Virus record (IMG/VR): IMGVR_UViG_3300038701_001425
Coordinates: 1 to 21,850 of that record
Reading direction: 5' to 3' (one strand)
Length of the DNA stretch: 21,850 nt
DNA from: a virus
A program made the position numbers and the translations under genes. Shown one piece after another: positions 7,060 through 21,175 of the stretch. The notes under the pieces are model-generated. The model was not told the origin of the DNA and made no database searches. It saw only the letters and a program-made list of their open reading frames with translations. Numbering within the stretch: the stretch's first letter is position 1; every line of letters starts with the position of its first letter.

Positions 7060-8693
7060 CGCTTTATCCCCTGACACAACAAAGATATTCTTCTTGAAAC
7101 TCCGGGTGGAAAACCTGATGTTATTAAAACCCTGAATGCTACAAACCCATTACCCCTATAAACTATGTCTGAGAACGGGAGATTAGTGCCACTTGAGGTG
7201 ATAGTAGTCCAAGTAATTCCATTATTAGAAACCTGAAAACTAAAAGCCCCTGCACCCCCAGTAACCCCCACAGTAACAAATAAAGGGATGGTTTTCCCAG
7301 AACCTAGTCCAGATATAGCGGCGGATGCCACAACATTTGACGATGCTGTATCAACCACCACAGAGCCAAATGGAACTGTAACCGCATCCTCCGCTATATT
7401 TAGTGTGTCAACTGCCGCGTTTTGGATTTTAGCGTTGGTAATTAGTGCGTTATTGATCTGGGCGGAGTTAGTGATGATACCACTTGTTGCCAGCAATCCA
7501 CCTGTAATCGTATTAGCTACAATCTTGTTGCCGGTGATGGTATTGGCTGCGATCTTGTCGCCTTCGATCGCCCCCGCCTCAATTTTAACGGCGGTGACGG
7601 CGTTGGTCGCAATTTTGTCCGCCGTCACAGCCCCTGCGGCGATTTCACTGGCAGCAACAGCCCCGGCTGCGATCTTGGCGGCGGTAATAGCATTGGTCGC
7701 GATGGTGTCAGCCGTGACAGCGCCAGCGGCCAGTTTTTCGGTAGTGACAGCCCCGGAAATGATGCTGCCCGCGGAGATTGCGTTTGCCGCCACTTTGTCG
7801 GCGGTGACAGCGCCAGCGGCGATCTTGGTCGCGTCAATGGCGCCTGCGGCGATCTTGGCGGCCTCAACGGCGCCAGCCTGAATTTTTACCGAGGTGACAG
7901 CGTTGCTTGCGATTTTGTCAGCTACGACTGAACCGGCTGCGATTTCTGCCGCTGACACCGCGCCTGCGGCGATCTTGGGTGCTGTGATCGCCTCGTCAGA
8001 AATCTGCGTCTCAGTTATCTGGCCGGTGAGCTTGGCCGCCGCAATGGCTGCGATCTGCGCATCGGTCAGTTGCCCGGTGATCTTGGATGCGGCCAGCCCA
8101 GCAATCTTGGCGTCAGTGATTGCCTGGTCATCAATTTGCGCTGTGGCGATCTGCCCCGCAATCTTGGCGGCATTGATGCTGGCGATCTGCGCGTCGGTGA
8201 TCTGGCCTGCGATCTTGGCGGCCTCAATCTCTGCGATCTGCTCATTGGTTAGTTGACCGATTACATCGATGGCAGGCACGCCCGCTGTCCACTCGTCACC
8301 GGTCCAGCGATAGAGCTTGTTGTCGACGGTGAGGAACACAAGCCGGCCAGGGAAATTGCCTGTCTCCGGCAGCACATCGACAATCTCGGGCGCGGAAAGA
8401 CCTGCGTTGCGAAACAGAAGCGCAGGATCTTCGATCAGGCCACTCAACTCCGTGATTGGTGCCTGAAACTGCTGAACGAACCTGCCGAACACACCGCCGA
8501 AGTATTCATCGAGCTCGCCTACCCGCACCGCGCGCTGACTGTCACTGCCGCGCTGACCGCTCAGGATCATGGCTTCTTCAAGGGCGCGCCGATCCATTGG
8601 GCTGCGTCCATCAACGTCACGCTGCCGAGGCTGTTCGTTGGCAATGGGCGGCACCCCACCCCATGCCGAACCGGGTGTTACATCATCGCTCAT
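7056..8693 (-). CDS. Tail fibre protein with decapeptide repeats, 545 aa
   Basis: Residues 1-145 form an attachment-like N-terminal region (about 62-145 look globular). Residues 147-230 contain irregular repeats of about 17 residues of the type Q-I-T-D-A-Q-I-A-x-I-x-A-A-K-I-A-G. Residues 231-400 are 17 consecutive decapeptides of consensus I-A-A-G-A-V-T-A-D-K. Residues about 435-545 form a distinct beta-rich tip. Such repeats are common in phage fibre and host-specificity proteins and form the elongated shaft; the tip is expected to bind the receptor. The gene overlaps its upstream neighbour by ATGA. The tip is encoded by DNA of much lower GC than the shaft, which suggests exchange of the receptor-binding end. 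Confidence 0.88.
   Translation of the reverse strand: MSDDVTPGSAWGGVPPIANEQPRQRDVDGRSPMDRRALEEAMILSGQRGSDSQRAVRVGELDEYFGGVFGRFVQQFQAPITELSGLIEDPALLFRNAGLSAPEIVDVLPETGNFPGRLVFLTVDNKLYRWTGDEWTAGVPAIDVIGQLTNEQIAEIEAAKIAGQITDAQIASINAAKIAGQIATAQIDDQAITDAKIAGLAASKITGQLTDAQIAAIAAAKLTGQITETQISDEAITAPKIAAGAVSAAEIAAGSVVADKIASNAVTSVKIQAGAVEAAKIAAGAIDATKIAAGAVTADKVAANAISAGSIISGAVTTEKLAAGAVTADTIATNAITAAKIAAGAVAASEIAAGAVTADKIATNAVTAVKIEAGAIEGDKIAANTITGNKIVANTITGGLLATSGIITNSAQINNALITNAKIQNAAVDTLNIAEDAVTVPFGSVVVDTASSNVVASAAISGLGSGKTIPLFVTVGVTGGAGAFSFQVSNNGITWTTITSSGTNLPFSDIVYRGNGFVAFRVLITSGFPPGVSRRISLLCQGIKR
7494..8003 (-). repeat. Array of 17 in-frame 30-bp units in the fibre gene
   Basis: The units encode decapeptides of consensus I-A-A-G-A-V-T-A-D-K with no insertion or deletion across 170 residues. 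Units differ by many substitutions, but several are nearly identical at DNA level. This makes the array prone to recombinational change in copy number and hence in fibre length. Confidence 0.85.
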
Positions 8694-12089: not shown

Positions 12090-12530
12090 TCAGGCTACGT
12101 AATCAATCTTGACCGTGAGCTTCTTGGCCGCGTCTGCGGCGACGTTGGCTGCGATCTTGGCGCCGATCGCACGATGCTCATTCGACGGTGCCACGGCCAG
12201 GCAGGAGGCCAGAGGCGCGTCAGCCGATGCGTCGTTGACGCTGGTGCCATCGAACAACTCGTCACCCACGGTTCGCTCTGCCACGGTATCGCCGGGGGTG
12301 CCGGTCATGATGCCAATGTCAGCCGTGGTCGCGCCAAGGCCGGCGGCAATGACGGTCGCGCCGATGATCTGGGTATCAGCGGGCAGCAAGCCCAGCTCGA
12401 TCACGTCGGTCGCGGTCGCGTAGTCAGATTTGAAGGTGTATTCAAAGATGGCGGAGGTAACGATTCCGGCCTGATAAGCCGAAGGCGTTGCTGCCTGCCC
12501 CTTTGCTGTGGAGCTTTGGAAGATCGTCAT
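12090..12530 (-). CDS. Probable capsid decoration or head-associated protein, 146 aa
   Basis: This gene directly follows the major capsid gene after a 63-base gap and has AAGGA eight bases upstream of the ATG at 12530. The protein is low in charge, rich in Ala, Thr and Val, and predicted beta-rich, ending with K-K-L-T-V-K-I-D-Y-V-A. Size, composition and position resemble the head-decoration or head-stabilising proteins that sit next to major capsid genes in many phages. I do not see a signature that identifies a known family, so the role is inferred from context. Confidence 0.75.
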   Translation of the reverse strand: MTIFQSSTAKGQAATPSAYQAGIVTSAIFEYTFKSDYATATDVIELGLLPADTQIIGATVIAAGLGATTADIGIMTGTPGDTVAERTVGDELFDGTSVNDASADAPLASCLAVAPSNEHRAIGAKIAANVAADAAKKLTVKIDYVA

Positions 12531-12567
12531 CTGGCGATTCCTTCTTTTATGTGGGGGTTAAAGGTGA

Positions 12568-12585
12568 GGCGGCGCGAACGCCGCC
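12568..12585 (-). terminator. Stable UUCG-loop hairpin just after the capsid gene
   Basis: The minus strand reads GGCGGCG-TTCG-CGCCGCC, a perfect seven-pair stem with a UUCG tetraloop, nine bases after the capsid stop codon. The following bases (TCACCTTTAACC) lack a T-run, so it is either a weak terminator or an mRNA-stabilising element that raises capsid mRNA level relative to downstream genes. Confidence 0.5.
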
Positions 12586-12593
12586 CCATTGGA

Positions 12594-13685
12594 TCAGACA
12601 GCCTTCGCGTAGGTGTCGAGTGCGATAGAGCCGAAATCCCGCCCATTGAAACGGGTCTTTTTCACGCCCATGATGAGGCCAGCGACTACGGTGGGCTCGT
12701 TGTCGTAGTCCTCCATTTCCTCTTTCCACATATAGCGCATGCCGCCCGGGGTGCCGTATGCGACGACACCGGCTTGGCGGCCCAAGAAGAGGGCGCGCGC
12801 GGCGGGCAGGTCGCCACCGGTGCCGTAGTCATCAAAACGGATCACGTTTTCATGCTCATGAAGCACGACGTTGTTGATCATGCCCATGTTGCCACGGAAG
12901 ATCGGGTTCTTGCGGCCTTCGGCGGCGGCTGCCGCCTTCTGGAAGTCCAGCCACTTGGAGCCCGACGCGGTGCGCATGGTGTGGGCCTGATACGGCGACA
13001 TGACGGTGACGAAGTGCTTTTCGCCCTCCACGTCGACCGGCATCATGTCAGTGGCATCGGTGTCCTTCGCGCGGATCATCTTGGCGTGCGTTGCCGCGCG
13101 CTCGATCAGGTCCGTGGTCATAACGTCAGCGACGGCCAGATCGGCCTTGCCGGTTGCGTCACCGCCAAACATAATGTGAGCGGCATCAGGGGCCTGCAAG
13201 CTGTTGGTCGCAAAGCCCTCGAAGTCAGAAGGCTCGATGAACTCTTCGTTCATCCCGCGGGCACCCGAGAGATAGATGAAGTAAAGCTCGTCGATATACT
13301 GGGTCCAGTATTCGGCCAGTCGATCCTTGGCGATCTTGCGCATGTCGTGCAGCGTGCGCTTGCGGCTCATGCGGCCACCAGCGGACACGGGGTGCCGCAT
13401 CTGGTCGATCACAACTTCGTCCGTGAAGAACTTGAGGTTTTCTTCTTTGCCTTTCACGCGCTTGTCGCCGAAGGTCGGGCGCTGCTTGAGCTTCACCGAC
13501 AGGTCGAAGGAAATCCGGTCACCGGCATCGGATGCCAGGTCCATTTTTTCTTCGATGATGTTGTTTTCACCTTTACCCACGAACTTCTTGTTGAAGTACG
13601 AGTTGCGGTTAACCTGGGTTGCGAGTGTTGCCGCCCAGCGTTTCACCGCGCTAGGGTCGCCCCAGTTAAGGATGGTTTGTGTCAT
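12594..13685 (-). CDS. Major capsid protein, N4-gp56 family, 363 aa
   Basis: The protein forms the capsid shell. It matches the N4-gp56 / DUF4043 type of major capsid protein. Features include an early N-R-N-S-Y-F-N-K-K-F-V-G segment, then I-S-F-D-L-S-V-K-L near residue 60. Next comes G-R-M-S-R-K-R-T-L-H-D-M-R, then the helix A-K-D-R-L-A-E-Y-W-T-Q-Y-I-D-E-L near residue 120. A later W-L-D-F-Q-K-A lies before a conserved N-P-I-F-R-G-N-M-G-M segment. The start at 13685 is chosen because GAGGA lies just upstream; an ATG four codons earlier (13697) would place this ribosome site inside the gene. Scaffold is upstream and a decoration-like gene downstream. The leader in front of it has an unusual GGA-hairpin layout (see the leader feature). 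Confidence 0.93.
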   Translation of the reverse strand: MTQTILNWGDPSAVKRWAATLATQVNRNSYFNKKFVGKGENNIIEEKMDLASDAGDRISFDLSVKLKQRPTFGDKRVKGKEENLKFFTDEVVIDQMRHPVSAGGRMSRKRTLHDMRKIAKDRLAEYWTQYIDELYFIYLSGARGMNEEFIEPSDFEGFATNSLQAPDAAHIMFGGDATGKADLAVADVMTTDLIERAATHAKMIRAKDTDATDMMPVDVEGEKHFVTVMSPYQAHTMRTASGSKWLDFQKAAAAAEGRKNPIFRGNMGMINNVVLHEHENVIRFDDYGTGGDLPAARALFLGRQAGVVAYGTPGGMRYMWKEEMEDYDNEPTVVAGLIMGVKKTRFNGRDFGSIALDTYAKAV

Positions 13686-13690
13686 GTCAG

Positions 13691-13751
13691 TCCTCATCGA
13701 CTATGAAAGCGAGGCGGACATCCATGCCCTGTTATCATCGGCATCCAGCCG
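13691..13751 (-). promoter_or_regulatory. Capsid mRNA leader with GGA-loop hairpins, candidate CsrA target
   Basis: On the minus strand the first hairpin is CGGC-TGGAT-GCCG (13739-13751). The second is GGGCA-TGGA-TGTCC (13716-13729, one G-U pair). Both expose GGA in the loop. A third GGA (13691-13693) is part of the capsid Shine-Dalgarno sequence and can be partly enclosed in TAGTC-GATGAG-GACTG. The second site reads CATGGATGT, close to the known CsrA SELEX consensus core CARGGAUGU. CsrA dimers commonly bridge an upstream GGA hairpin and a ribosome-site GGA to block translation. The csrA-like gene lies directly upstream. Binding is inferred, not shown. Confidence 0.5.
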
Positions 13752-13764
13752 TGAACGATTATCA

Positions 13765-13787
13765 AATACCACATGTTGTGTGGAATT
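13765..13787 (-). promoter_or_regulatory. Copy B of the CAAYATGTKGTAT motif
   Basis: The minus strand contains CACAACATGTGGTATTTG and forms an inverted repeat, CCACA-N5-TGTGG, extended to AAT/ATT outside. It shares 15 identical bases with copy C near the terminase. A TTGGCA lies 18 bases before TATTTG, so it could be a promoter for the capsid gene as well as an operator; in RNA it would form a small hairpin. Confidence 0.35.
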
Positions 13788-13798
13788 GCCAATATCAT

Positions 13799-13975
13799 CT
13801 ACATATTGCGCTCCCATTCAGTTTTCGCCGCAACAGGTATGCGGGCGATGTTGATTTCGCGCGGGGCTTCTATGCCCACGGTCATGCGGCCTTTGGATGT
13901 TTCTTCTTTGACCACTAGCCGGATATCGTCTCCGATCTGGAGGCTTTCTCCGGCCTTGAGCTTGAGCGTAAGCAC
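13799..13975 (-). CDS. csrA: CsrA-family RNA-binding translational regulator, 58 aa
   Basis: The frame starts at a GTG with AGAGGGA eight bases upstream, 25 bases after the scaffold stop, and ends with TAG. The sequence follows the CsrA/RsmA pattern closely: L2-T-L4, then A8-G-E-S-L12, I14-G-D-D-I18, then G34-I-E-A-P-R39 and a C-terminal R45. In known CsrA proteins Leu4 and Arg44 contact RNA. Leu4 is kept, and R45 aligns with Arg44 after a one-residue insertion near residue 28. The usual E-E-I-Y after that Arg is replaced by I-P-V-A, and the usual T-R-R/K at positions 5-7 is K-L-K, so binding preference may differ. CsrA binds GGA motifs near ribosome sites as a dimer and normally represses translation. 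Placement inside a head-gene operon suggests control of late mRNA, host mRNA, or both. Confidence 0.85.
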   Translation of the reverse strand: MLTLKLKAGESLQIGDDIRLVVKEETSKGRMTVGIEAPREINIARIPVAAKTEWERNM

Positions 13976-13999
13976 CGCGCGATCTTCCCTCTGTGCTGC

Positions 14000-15007
14000 T
14001 TATACGTCCATGCTGGCGAAGGCTTCGGCTTCGTCCGGCGACAGACTGGCGATGATGCGCTCGTATTCCTCTGGCCCTGCGCTTTCGAGGCGTTGCGCGA
14101 GCGCGGAATACTTCCCATCCGAGACGGACACCGGTGCTGCGTTGGGGACGTTGGCCAGTGTGACTGGGGCCTTGTCGCCCGGGCGTTTCTTTTGCGCGGG
14201 CGGCTGCGTGGCGTTGTCCTGTGCATGGGGCTGTGCATCCGCTTGAGGCGCGGGCTTTTCCTTGCCTTTGGGCGCGGGCACTTCAAGCCCAAGAACCTCG
14301 GCTTCAGCCGCATACAAGCGGTGCGCGGCCTCCAGCATTTGCCGGTGAGTCAGGTGTTGATACTGCGGGCTTGCAGTGATCGAGCGCACATGGCGGTCAT
14401 AGGCCTCGGCGTGGCTTTGGGTGGCGAGATCGGGGTATTCCCCGAAATAGCCCTTGGCTGCGCTGATGAATGCCTCGTAAACAGCCTTCTCTTGGCTTTC
14501 GGCCACGGCACGCTGTGAGATGGCTTCTTTTTCCACCCCTGCGATTTCATCCAGCTTTGCGAGGTATTCATCTCGCGAGATTTCCCCGTTCTCGTAGCGG
14601 TCGAACACATCTACCTTGGCGGATTTGAGGGCCTCGATTTCGGCGTCAATGGCGGACATGTCAGGGGCTTGGGTGCCGGTGGCCTGCTCGCCTTTGTCGC
14701 TGTCCTCGTCGGCATTGTCCTCGGCGGTATCGTCGCTGGCGGCCTGAGCTGCGGGTTCGCCTTGGTCGCTCCCTTCGTCAGCCGCATCGCTCACCCCCTC
14801 GTCTGCGTCATCATTGTCGGTTGCGCCCTCGTTCTCCTCGTCGTCAAAAAGTGCCGCGCGTTCCTCGTCGCTGAGAAGGCGCATGTCCTCTTCGGTCCAT
14901 TCCTCGTCATCGCTGGGCGCGTCCTCGATCTCGGGCAGATCGTCCTGCGCCTGTTCGGCCTGCGCCTGATCCTCGGTCACGTCGTCTTTGATGTCGTCGT
15001 TAGGCAT
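14000..15007 (-). CDS. Scaffold protein, 335 aa
   Basis: The start at 15007 is preceded by AAGGAGGG with seven bases of spacing; the longer open frame to 15091 covers the neighbouring small gene and is rejected. Residues 1-115 are extremely acidic (Asp/Glu with Ala, Gln). A helical, coiled-coil-like centre (about 118-235) follows, then a Pro/Gln/Lys linker (about 245-290) and a short helical C-terminus that ends A-F-A-S-M-D-V. An acidic N-terminus, coiled centre and small C-terminal helix that docks on the capsid are typical of phage scaffolds. Its place between portal and major capsid protein agrees. No protease domain is visible. Confidence 0.85.
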   Translation of the reverse strand: MPNDDIKDDVTEDQAQAEQAQDDLPEIEDAPSDDEEWTEEDMRLLSDEERAALFDDEENEGATDNDDADEGVSDAADEGSDQGEPAAQAASDDTAEDNADEDSDKGEQATGTQAPDMSAIDAEIEALKSAKVDVFDRYENGEISRDEYLAKLDEIAGVEKEAISQRAVAESQEKAVYEAFISAAKGYFGEYPDLATQSHAEAYDRHVRSITASPQYQHLTHRQMLEAAHRLYAAEAEVLGLEVPAPKGKEKPAPQADAQPHAQDNATQPPAQKKRPGDKAPVTLANVPNAAPVSVSDGKYSALAQRLESAGPEEYERIIASLSPDEAEAFASMDV

Positions 15008-15027
15008 GTGGTTTCCCTCCTTGTGCC

Positions 15028-15204
15028 TTATGCTGCGGTGAAGTCTTTGACGCGGCTGGCGTGCATCCATCCGTCGCGCCAGTTTGCCCATTGGCCGGGG
15101 TATTCATCCGGCTTGAACGGTGCGTCCTTGATGTGCGGGTTAGCCTCCAGCGGCTTGCCTTGGGCGAAAGCCTGCTGTCCTGCGAGAAACGGGGGCAAAC
15201 TCAC
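15028..15204 (-). CDS. Rmf/CrpP-like small protein, 58 aa
   Basis: The GTG at 15204 overlaps the portal stop as GTGA, so translation is coupled to portal. The protein has the spacing G-x-x-A-F-x-x-G-x-x-x-x-x-N-P-H, then a short loop, then W-R-D-G-W-M-H-A. This is close to the G..A...G.....NPY...W..GW..A pattern of ribosome modulation factor and the CrpP-like small proteins. In E. coli, Rmf joins 70S ribosomes into inactive dimers. Phage relatives of this pattern exist, but their role is not known to me. The Tyr of NPY is His here. It could act on host ribosomes late in infection, or have drifted to a structural role. It stops 20 bases before the scaffold start and includes no signal or membrane segment. 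Confidence 0.65.
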   Translation of the reverse strand: MSLPPFLAGQQAFAQGKPLEANPHIKDAPFKPDEYPGQWANWRDGWMHASRVKDFTAA

Positions 15205-20163: not shown

Positions 20164-20178
20164 ATACCACATGTTGTG
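20164..20178 (-). promoter_or_regulatory. Copy C of the CAAYATGTKGTAT motif, at the terminase start
   Basis: The minus strand reads CACAACATGTGGTAT, identical over 15 bases to copy B in front of the capsid gene. It ends nine bases before the preferred terminase ATG. Its core is 41 bases from the core of copy D, about four helical turns, which would suit cooperative binding by one regulator. Confidence 0.35.
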
Positions 20179-20204: not shown

Positions 20205-20220
20205 ATACAACATGTTGATA
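20205..20220. promoter_or_regulatory. Copy D of the motif, perfect palindrome CAACATGTTG
   Basis: A perfect ten-base palindrome lies in the divergent region between the terminase (minus) and the toxin-antitoxin operon (plus). It overlaps the presumed -35 element of the plus-strand promoter, so a protein bound here could repress that promoter. Confidence 0.35.
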
Positions 20221-20686: not shown

Positions 20687-21175
20687 ATGACAGATTTTAT
20701 GCACCCACATAACGCGGGGGAACGCTACCACTACACTGACAGTGGGCTTCACAACATCTGGCTTGTCGGTGGCGTTGATCGTGTTGAAACGCCCTACGGA
20801 ATGGCGACCTCAATCCGGGACTTGGATGAGCTTCACATGGAGATTGGCCGCGCTATAGCATCCAAGGCCTTGTCGAGCGGCGAGATAAGCGGGGCTGAGT
20901 TTCGATTTCTACGGCAAGAGCTTGAGCTTTCGCAGAAGGCTTTGGGCCGGTTGCTACACTGCAACGAGCAGCAGATTCACCGATGGGAAGGTGAGAAGTC
21001 AGGCTTACCAGGCACGGCGGCTGTTGCTCTTGCCGGTTATTACATCGAGGCGACTGATCCAGAGAGCCGCGTAAAGGATTTGCTTGATCGGTATGCGGAG
21101 CTTGACGCGCTGGAAGCCAGGTCAGAAATGATCTTCACCATGAAACAGGACCACTGGGAGCCGGAGGCGGCTTGA
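20687..21175 (+). CDS. HTH antitoxin (MqsA/HigA-like) paired with the DUF4258 toxin, 162 aa
   Basis: The start is ATG 20687 with GGGAGAG just upstream. Residues 14-30 (Y-H-Y-T-D-S-G-L-H-N-I-W-L) are a signature of antitoxins that accompany DUF4258 and MqsR-type toxins. Residues about 71-101 form a helix-turn-helix: E-F-R-F-L-R-Q-E-L-E-L-S-Q-K-A-L-G-R-L-L, then Q-Q-I-H-R-W-E. The N-terminal CxxC zinc knuckles of classical MqsA are absent. The protein should bind its own promoter and neutralise the toxin. The toxin-first order is as in mqsRA and higBA. The palindrome at 20208-20217 is a candidate operator, though this is a guess. Confidence 0.8.
   Translation: MTDFMHPHNAGERYHYTDSGLHNIWLVGGVDRVETPYGMATSIRDLDELHMEIGRAIASKALSSGEISGAEFRFLRQELELSQKALGRLLHCNEQQIHRWEGEKSGLPGTAAVALAGYYIEATDPESRVKDLLDRYAELDALEARSEMIFTMKQDHWEPEAA

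Follow-up and report, generated by a model that had tools for sequence, protein, structure and literature searches.

The window analysed here, the whole stretch of 21,850 nucleotides, carries a short csrA homologue between a gene in the scaffold position and the gene for the major capsid protein (MCP; Table 1). Its frame begins with GTG at 13975, ends with TAG at 13801-13799 and encodes the 58-residue product MLTLKLKAGESLQIGDDIRLVVKEETSKGRMTVGIEAPREINIARIPVAAKTEWERNM, while the plus-strand frame over the same interval is interrupted by a stop. A sequence-only reading of this DNA had proposed the 58-residue frame with its GTG start, naming no strand, and had located it between the scaffold and major capsid genes; the frame exists, on the minus strand, and both neighbours were recovered where the reading had put them. 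The family matched by the upstream neighbour is listed in PHROG as of unknown function. In the capsid gene, the first ATG lies at 13697 and the family alignment begins at the ATG at 13685; the true start is probably the latter codon rather than the former, which overlaps the Shine-Dalgarno sequence. About 100 nt separate the csrA stop codon from the capsid ATG, and this gap contains a conserved RNA hairpin. It is the gap with its hairpin that is new here; the gene itself was already known.

Table 1. Features of the csrA-MCP region and related sites in the window
Feature	Position	Strand	Basis or remark
MCP gene	12594..13697	minus	PF13252, E 6.5e-64; phrog_334, major head protein
Segment C: MCP Shine-Dalgarno GAGGA (13695-13691) and probable start ATG (13685-13683)	13683..13695	minus	predicted to pair with segment B
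Leader hairpin 2 (segments A and B), GGGC-AUGGAU-GUCC	13716..13729	minus	family-wide element, covarying stem
Leader hairpin 1, CGGC-UGGAU-GCCG, GGA in loop	13739..13751	minus	nearest relatives of the window only
CAACATGTGGTAT (CAACATNTGGTAT motif), immediately upstream of the leader hairpins	13766..13778	minus	recurs in MCP leaders of relatives
csrA homologue, 58 aa	13799..13975	minus	Pfam match, fold, annotation of relatives, 66% identical gene in L001
Shine-Dalgarno-like AGAGGGA of csrA	13986..13992	minus	read from sequence
Scaffold-position gene, upstream of csrA	14000..15091	minus	phrog_8246, E 2.8e-27; between portal and MCP
All CAACATNTGGTAT motif sites	13766-13778, 20164-20176, 20205-20217, 2863-2875, 7477-7489 (minus); 20752-20764 (plus)	as marked	

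The assignment of the 58-residue protein to the CsrA family, likewise proposed earlier, was borne out. The CsrA profile PF02599 matches it with an E value of 5.4e-13 and 49.1 bits (curated cut-off 27), a PHROG search returns CsrA-like regulators, and phmmer finds solved CsrA/RsmA/RsmE chains. The fold was modelled with AlphaFold2 as a monomer (mean pLDDT 82, pTM 0.55), and the six best PDB matches of the model are all CsrA or RsmA (TM 0.48-0.65, best Foldseek E 0.011). The motifs that the earlier reading had listed are found by alignment: Leu4, G9-E10-S11, I14-G15-D16-D17-I18 and A37-P38 are retained, as is the equivalent of CsrA Arg44, which is numbered residue 45 in the window protein because of a one-residue insertion. 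Residues 5-7 read K-L-K in place of the usual T-R-R/K, so that of the two basic positions of strand 1, positions 6 and 7, occupied here by Leu6 and Lys7, one is kept.

Conservation of the gene at this place was also found among related phages. A 66% identical csrA occupies the equivalent position in L001, and csrA is annotated directly upstream of the capsid gene in CSP3, BcepIL02, JC1, DC1, BcepMigl, Parlo, Pavtok and LASTA. A csrA at the head-module position is thus a known kind of gene, and the description of the frame as hidden and easily missed does not hold up, since it had already been annotated as CsrA-like at the equivalent place in these eight named phages. Judged from its P22-type portal, scaffold-position gene and PF13252 capsid protein, the window belongs with the Bcep22-like podoviruses. 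In L025 (Microcystis phage Mwe-JY25) and L124, a strongly diverged csrA lies immediately at the start of the MCP gene, leaving little space for a promoter, and the 3' end of csrA abuts or runs into the hairpin.

The leader of the window contains two GGA hairpins. The loop of hairpin 2 fits the binding consensus of CsrA/RsmE proteins, CANGGANG, and this hairpin recurs as an exact copy, once each, in 7/7 close relatives of the window. Viral contigs, named phages and genomes supplied the MCP loci, of which 168 distinct ones were retained; 167 of these carry hairpin 2 or a homologue (151 recognized by pattern, 16 by eye), about 30-60 nt ahead of the capsid start. The family forms combine a GCGC/GUGC or GGGC/GUCC stem with an (A)NGGAN, AUGAN or AAGAN loop. 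Across 98 distinct hairpin sequences, 99-100% can form each of the core stem pairs 1-4; at pair 3, C-G occurs in 87, G-C in 8 and U-G in 3, and at pair 2 a G.U is present in 91. The G.U at pair 2 favours an RNA element over a DNA dyad, since a palindrome in DNA would not preserve it. No Rfam family matched the region 12500-14100 up to E 1. A scan of viral contigs with the hairpin pattern returned 19 stretches, 5 of which are MCP leaders; the other matches, which have no MCP gene close by, were treated as chance. GGA hairpins are not enriched across the window (10 found against 17 in shuffles), and we therefore claim no window-wide CsrA regulon; the leaders of the remaining window genes contain no convincing GGA hairpin.

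Just upstream of the hairpins lies a copy of the CAACATNTGGTAT motif, which, allowing up to 2 mismatches, matches the window 6 times against 0.79 expected, a number reached in 0/100 shuffles. With sites near the MCP and small-terminase starts, the motif is a candidate phage promoter or operator element. If it is one, translation of the small terminase probably begins downstream of GTG 20170. A promoter-like pattern is often found directly upstream of the hairpin in the family as well (40 cases against 7 in shuffles), while a strict sigma-70 promoter scan gave no match in the csrA-MCP gap of the window. A terminator-like site at 13783-13769 was discarded as no better than chance.

What could the hairpin do in the leader? 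Its 3' arm, segment B, is complementary not only to segment A but also to segment C, either at the Shine-Dalgarno sequence or between it and the ATG, as in L236 (GGAAGUGCUCU with AGGAGCACUUCC) and L086 (GGAGUGUGGG with GCACACUCCC). The B:C complementarity within a leader scores 14.9 against 11.8 (sd 0.30) after permutation, and the computed probability that B pairs with the ribosome-binding site (RBS) is 0.74 for a leader's own RBS segment against 0.365 (sd 0.023) with RBS segments exchanged, both permutations ignoring relatedness. When A:B is enforced, the accessibility of the RBS rises in 118/131 leaders, from a mean of 0.27 to 0.47. The models thus describe A:B and B:C as two mutually exclusive folds. 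Enforcing A:B costs a median of 7.3 kcal/mol relative to the free ensemble, which implies that CsrA would have to act during transcription or bind tightly. For the window leader, the best fold pairs B with the Shine-Dalgarno sequence and the start codon (probability of B:RBS pairing 0.69); its overall stability relative to shuffles is z -1.45, and B:C is moderately supported there.

That the hairpin and CsrA belong together is suggested by their joint variation. Lineages whose CsrA has lost Arg at residue 44 mostly show U or A where the loop GGA has its first G. With distal CsrA copies included, 54 loci combine Arg with GGA, 6 Arg with another loop, 16 a non-Arg residue with GGA and 70 a non-Arg residue with another loop, where 16 loops and residue 44 of the distal copies were assigned by eye. 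Leaving out the distal copies gives 53/5/15/52, that is, GGA in 53/58 Arg loci and its absence from 52/67 non-Arg loci. When all CsrA columns are compared, with none picked in advance, residue 44 best predicts the first loop base (phi 0.66, against 0.41 for the runner-up), and the pair of first loop G and residue 44 ranks 1 among 2,419 protein-RNA column pairs (z 7.0). Shared ancestry was considered in two ways: in simulations along the capsid tree, the observed phi of 0.70 was reached in 0/3,000 runs under either null, and among 15 independent pairs differing in Arg44, the loop changed as expected in 7 and in the reverse direction in 0 (sign P 0.008). The covarying pair corresponds to a known contact, because in the crystal structure of RsmN with RsmZ2 Arg62, the equivalent of Arg44, touches the first G of ANGGA at its N7 (PMC3791407); the R62A exchange in RsmN lowers the affinity more than 1,000-fold (PMC3791407). 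The protein and the hairpin have very probably changed together through evolution, giving lineages with their own protein-RNA pairs. The second-ranked covarying pair, CsrA residue 21 with the loop base after GA (z 5.6, leaders of 110 loci), may be a further contact or may be tied to loop length.

The correspondence has exceptions. Arg occurs with UGA loops in L028/L127, L025, L161, L166 and L305, and Lys with GGA in L085/L122/L230. A non-Arg residue occurs with GGA in L014, L100, L178, L205, L240 and L252, and also in L110/L114/L115/L189/L198/L202/L209, where the region before position 44 is altered (FTDLPIRxL.DG); the Pavtok type counts as an exception, too. The L110/L114 group possibly represents a second mode of reading GGA. 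On the window itself, the canonical code fits, because Arg44 is kept and the leader has two GGA hairpins. The sequence-only reading had concluded from the altered residues that the RNA preference of this protein has changed: K-L-K at 5-7 is indeed there, but a changed preference is not supported for the window protein, and the comparison suggests one instead for relatives lacking Arg44.

But what about phages in which csrA does not adjoin the capsid gene? Of 25 records where no csrA, or only a weak one, was detected beside the MCP gene, 23 have a match elsewhere or nearby; in PBC5, Atu_ph08 and other rhizobial phages, the capsid gene is set apart from the scaffold-position gene and csrA is elsewhere. 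The idea of phages that keep the hairpin without csrA was dropped, as csrA sits elsewhere in those genomes. Further copies of the hairpin were found as well: its pattern occurs 54 times in 22 records against 9 for a reversed control, with several extra hairpins 8-31 nt upstream of the starts of endolysin, DarB-like, tail or virion genes in LASTA, Pavtok, Itty13, PBC5, Atu_ph08 and POI1126 (L355-L362). Second copies within the DarB-like coding sequence of Lessieviruses were excluded from the leader counts. Within genomes, the loop base is concordant in 51/60 pairs against 26.5 in permutations that ignore relatedness (maximum 42). The extra copies suggest a small late regulon in those phages. 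In the window clade, the MCP site is the only hairpin site found, and a wider regulon is thus indicated for other lineages only.

We consider it likely that the phage keeps its CsrA as a dedicated regulator of translation from its own late mRNA, with the MCP leader as the foremost target, and that the protein activates by switching between A:B and B:C. The leader would begin right after csrA, and the loop of hairpin A:B would present the predicted CsrA site. In the alternative helix B:C, the 3' arm would mask either the Shine-Dalgarno region of the MCP gene or the nucleotides leading to its start codon. A CsrA dimer could bind A:B as the leader emerges from RNA polymerase; with A:B held by CsrA, B:C would be blocked and ribosomes could enter, so that rising CsrA would turn on capsid translation. 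In other members of the family, where a hairpin also precedes endolysin, DarB-like and tail genes, these might respond in the same way, and the recognition code would drift, the first loop G giving way mostly to U or A once residue 44 is no longer Arg. Activation is predicted because B:C closes the RBS and A:B opens it, as in E. coli ymdA, where CsrA activates by opening a hairpin that sequesters the Shine-Dalgarno sequence (PMC7492729). The sequence comparisons establish the hairpin and its conservation, the covariation in its stem, the complementarity of B to C and the joint variation of residue 44 and loop base; from these we infer the binding of CsrA to the hairpin, activation rather than repression, and the timing. 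Of the earlier proposal that CsrA exerts post-transcriptional control on phage or host mRNAs, the phage option stands, and the evidence points to the MCP leader rather than to host transcripts.

The opposite sign of regulation deserves attention, although we regard it as rather unlikely. A CsrA dimer might bridge the hairpin and the Shine-Dalgarno sequence and so delay capsid synthesis until it is titrated, or tune the capsid-to-scaffold ratio. Repression from a site on or close to the Shine-Dalgarno sequence is the commonest mode of CsrA action (PMC7492729), and in the window and L016 this sequence itself includes GGA. However, many members have no second GGA there, and in the predictions the RBS is closed by the conserved B:C helix when CsrA is absent and opened by A:B. 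Host-directed action is the published view of such genes: for JC1 (PMC9144972) and CSP3 (PMC10269572), csrA was called a 'moron' gene, which would mean that the protein mainly targets host mRNAs for metabolism, motility or immunity. A differently placed homologue, gp28 of PTXU04, lends this some weight, since its knockdown gives small plaques and it is among the genes that are toxic on expression or interfere with infection (PMC11879866). Yet a host-directed role predicts neither that CsrA covaries with the phage leader nor that many lineages have lost Arg44, and Burkholderia cenocepacia, a host of such phages, reportedly has no chromosomal csrA (PMC7366521); we judge it unlikely.

A hairpin that works without CsrA, as an mRNA stabiliser, DNA operator or transcription element, with the residue 44 match owed to shared ancestry, would explain why the hairpin stays where csrA does not adjoin the MCP gene and why a promoter-like pattern often precedes it. 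This seems very unlikely to us, as csrA is still present elsewhere in those genomes, the tree simulations and independent pairs oppose ancestry alone, and most stems contain a G.U pair. Finally, CsrA could be packaged in the virion and enter the cell along with the DNA. Mass spectrometry of JC1 virions did detect one unique CsrA peptide, which its authors deem not definitive (PMC9144972), but a single peptide is little, and a product made beside the MCP can be carried along; we give this reading hardly any credence.

Control of late genes by the phage's own CsrA would have consequences beyond the window. We lean slightly towards the broader view that a podovirus family runs late-gene translation (capsid, endolysin, DarB-like and tail genes) through phage CsrA and switch-like hairpins, with a code that has been repeatedly rewritten into naturally orthogonal pairs: Arg44 with GGA; Asn, His, Ile or Leu44 mostly with UGA; and Gly44 with AGA. 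Phage CsrA genes would then have to be re-read: no longer host-directed accessories, they would serve as dedicated regulators of late genes in the phage itself, with a precise, testable target. In the leader, phage head modules would possess a conserved RNA switch absent from Rfam, one operated by CsrA and kept across a large virus family. The series of natural specificity changes at a single contact, between residue 44 and the leading G of GGA, could reveal how CsrA specificity evolves and also provide orthogonal regulator pairs.

Finally, we would set the phage element beside the systems it resembles. The csrA genes of Bcep22-like phages (JC1 gp47, BcepIL02 gp49, CSP3 orf23, Parlo gp62, LASTA gp20) share the order scaffold-position gene, csrA, MCP gene, and the leader hairpin, but the window protein is only about 20-35% identical to theirs. 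The excerpts available of the JC1 and CSP3 publications describe no leader target for these genes, publications on JC1, POI1126 and Atu_ph08 that we searched make no mention of a CsrA-capsid leader link, and within the open-licence literature we found no report of one for any phage CsrA, although priority is not certain. PTXU04 gp28, likewise a CsrA homologue from a phage, has a knockdown phenotype, but it does not adjoin the MCP gene; considered as an experimental parallel, it was rejected as a case of this arrangement, because only 23 nt precede the PTXU04 MCP gene and such a leader is therefore missing. With the CsrA/RsmA/RsmE proteins, such as E. coli CsrA and P. aeruginosa RsmA, the window protein shares the sequence family, the fold, Leu4, the GES and IGD motifs, Arg44 and a candidate GGA-loop target; it differs in K-L-K at 5-7, in the one-residue insertion and in the single apparent target in its clade, and many of its phage relatives have lost Arg44 along with the loop G. 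The ymdA leader offers a likeness in mechanism, CsrA binding in a 5' leader opening a structure that sequesters the Shine-Dalgarno sequence, as predicted for the phage family; however, ymdA pairs a host gene with the host CsrA, whereas the phage case would pair a conserved phage element with its cognate protein, activation being a prediction. For RsmN and RsmZ2, the excerpted study reports no natural loss of the Arg with a loop change, yet the base that Arg62 contacts in that complex is the very one that covaries with residue 44 across the phage family.
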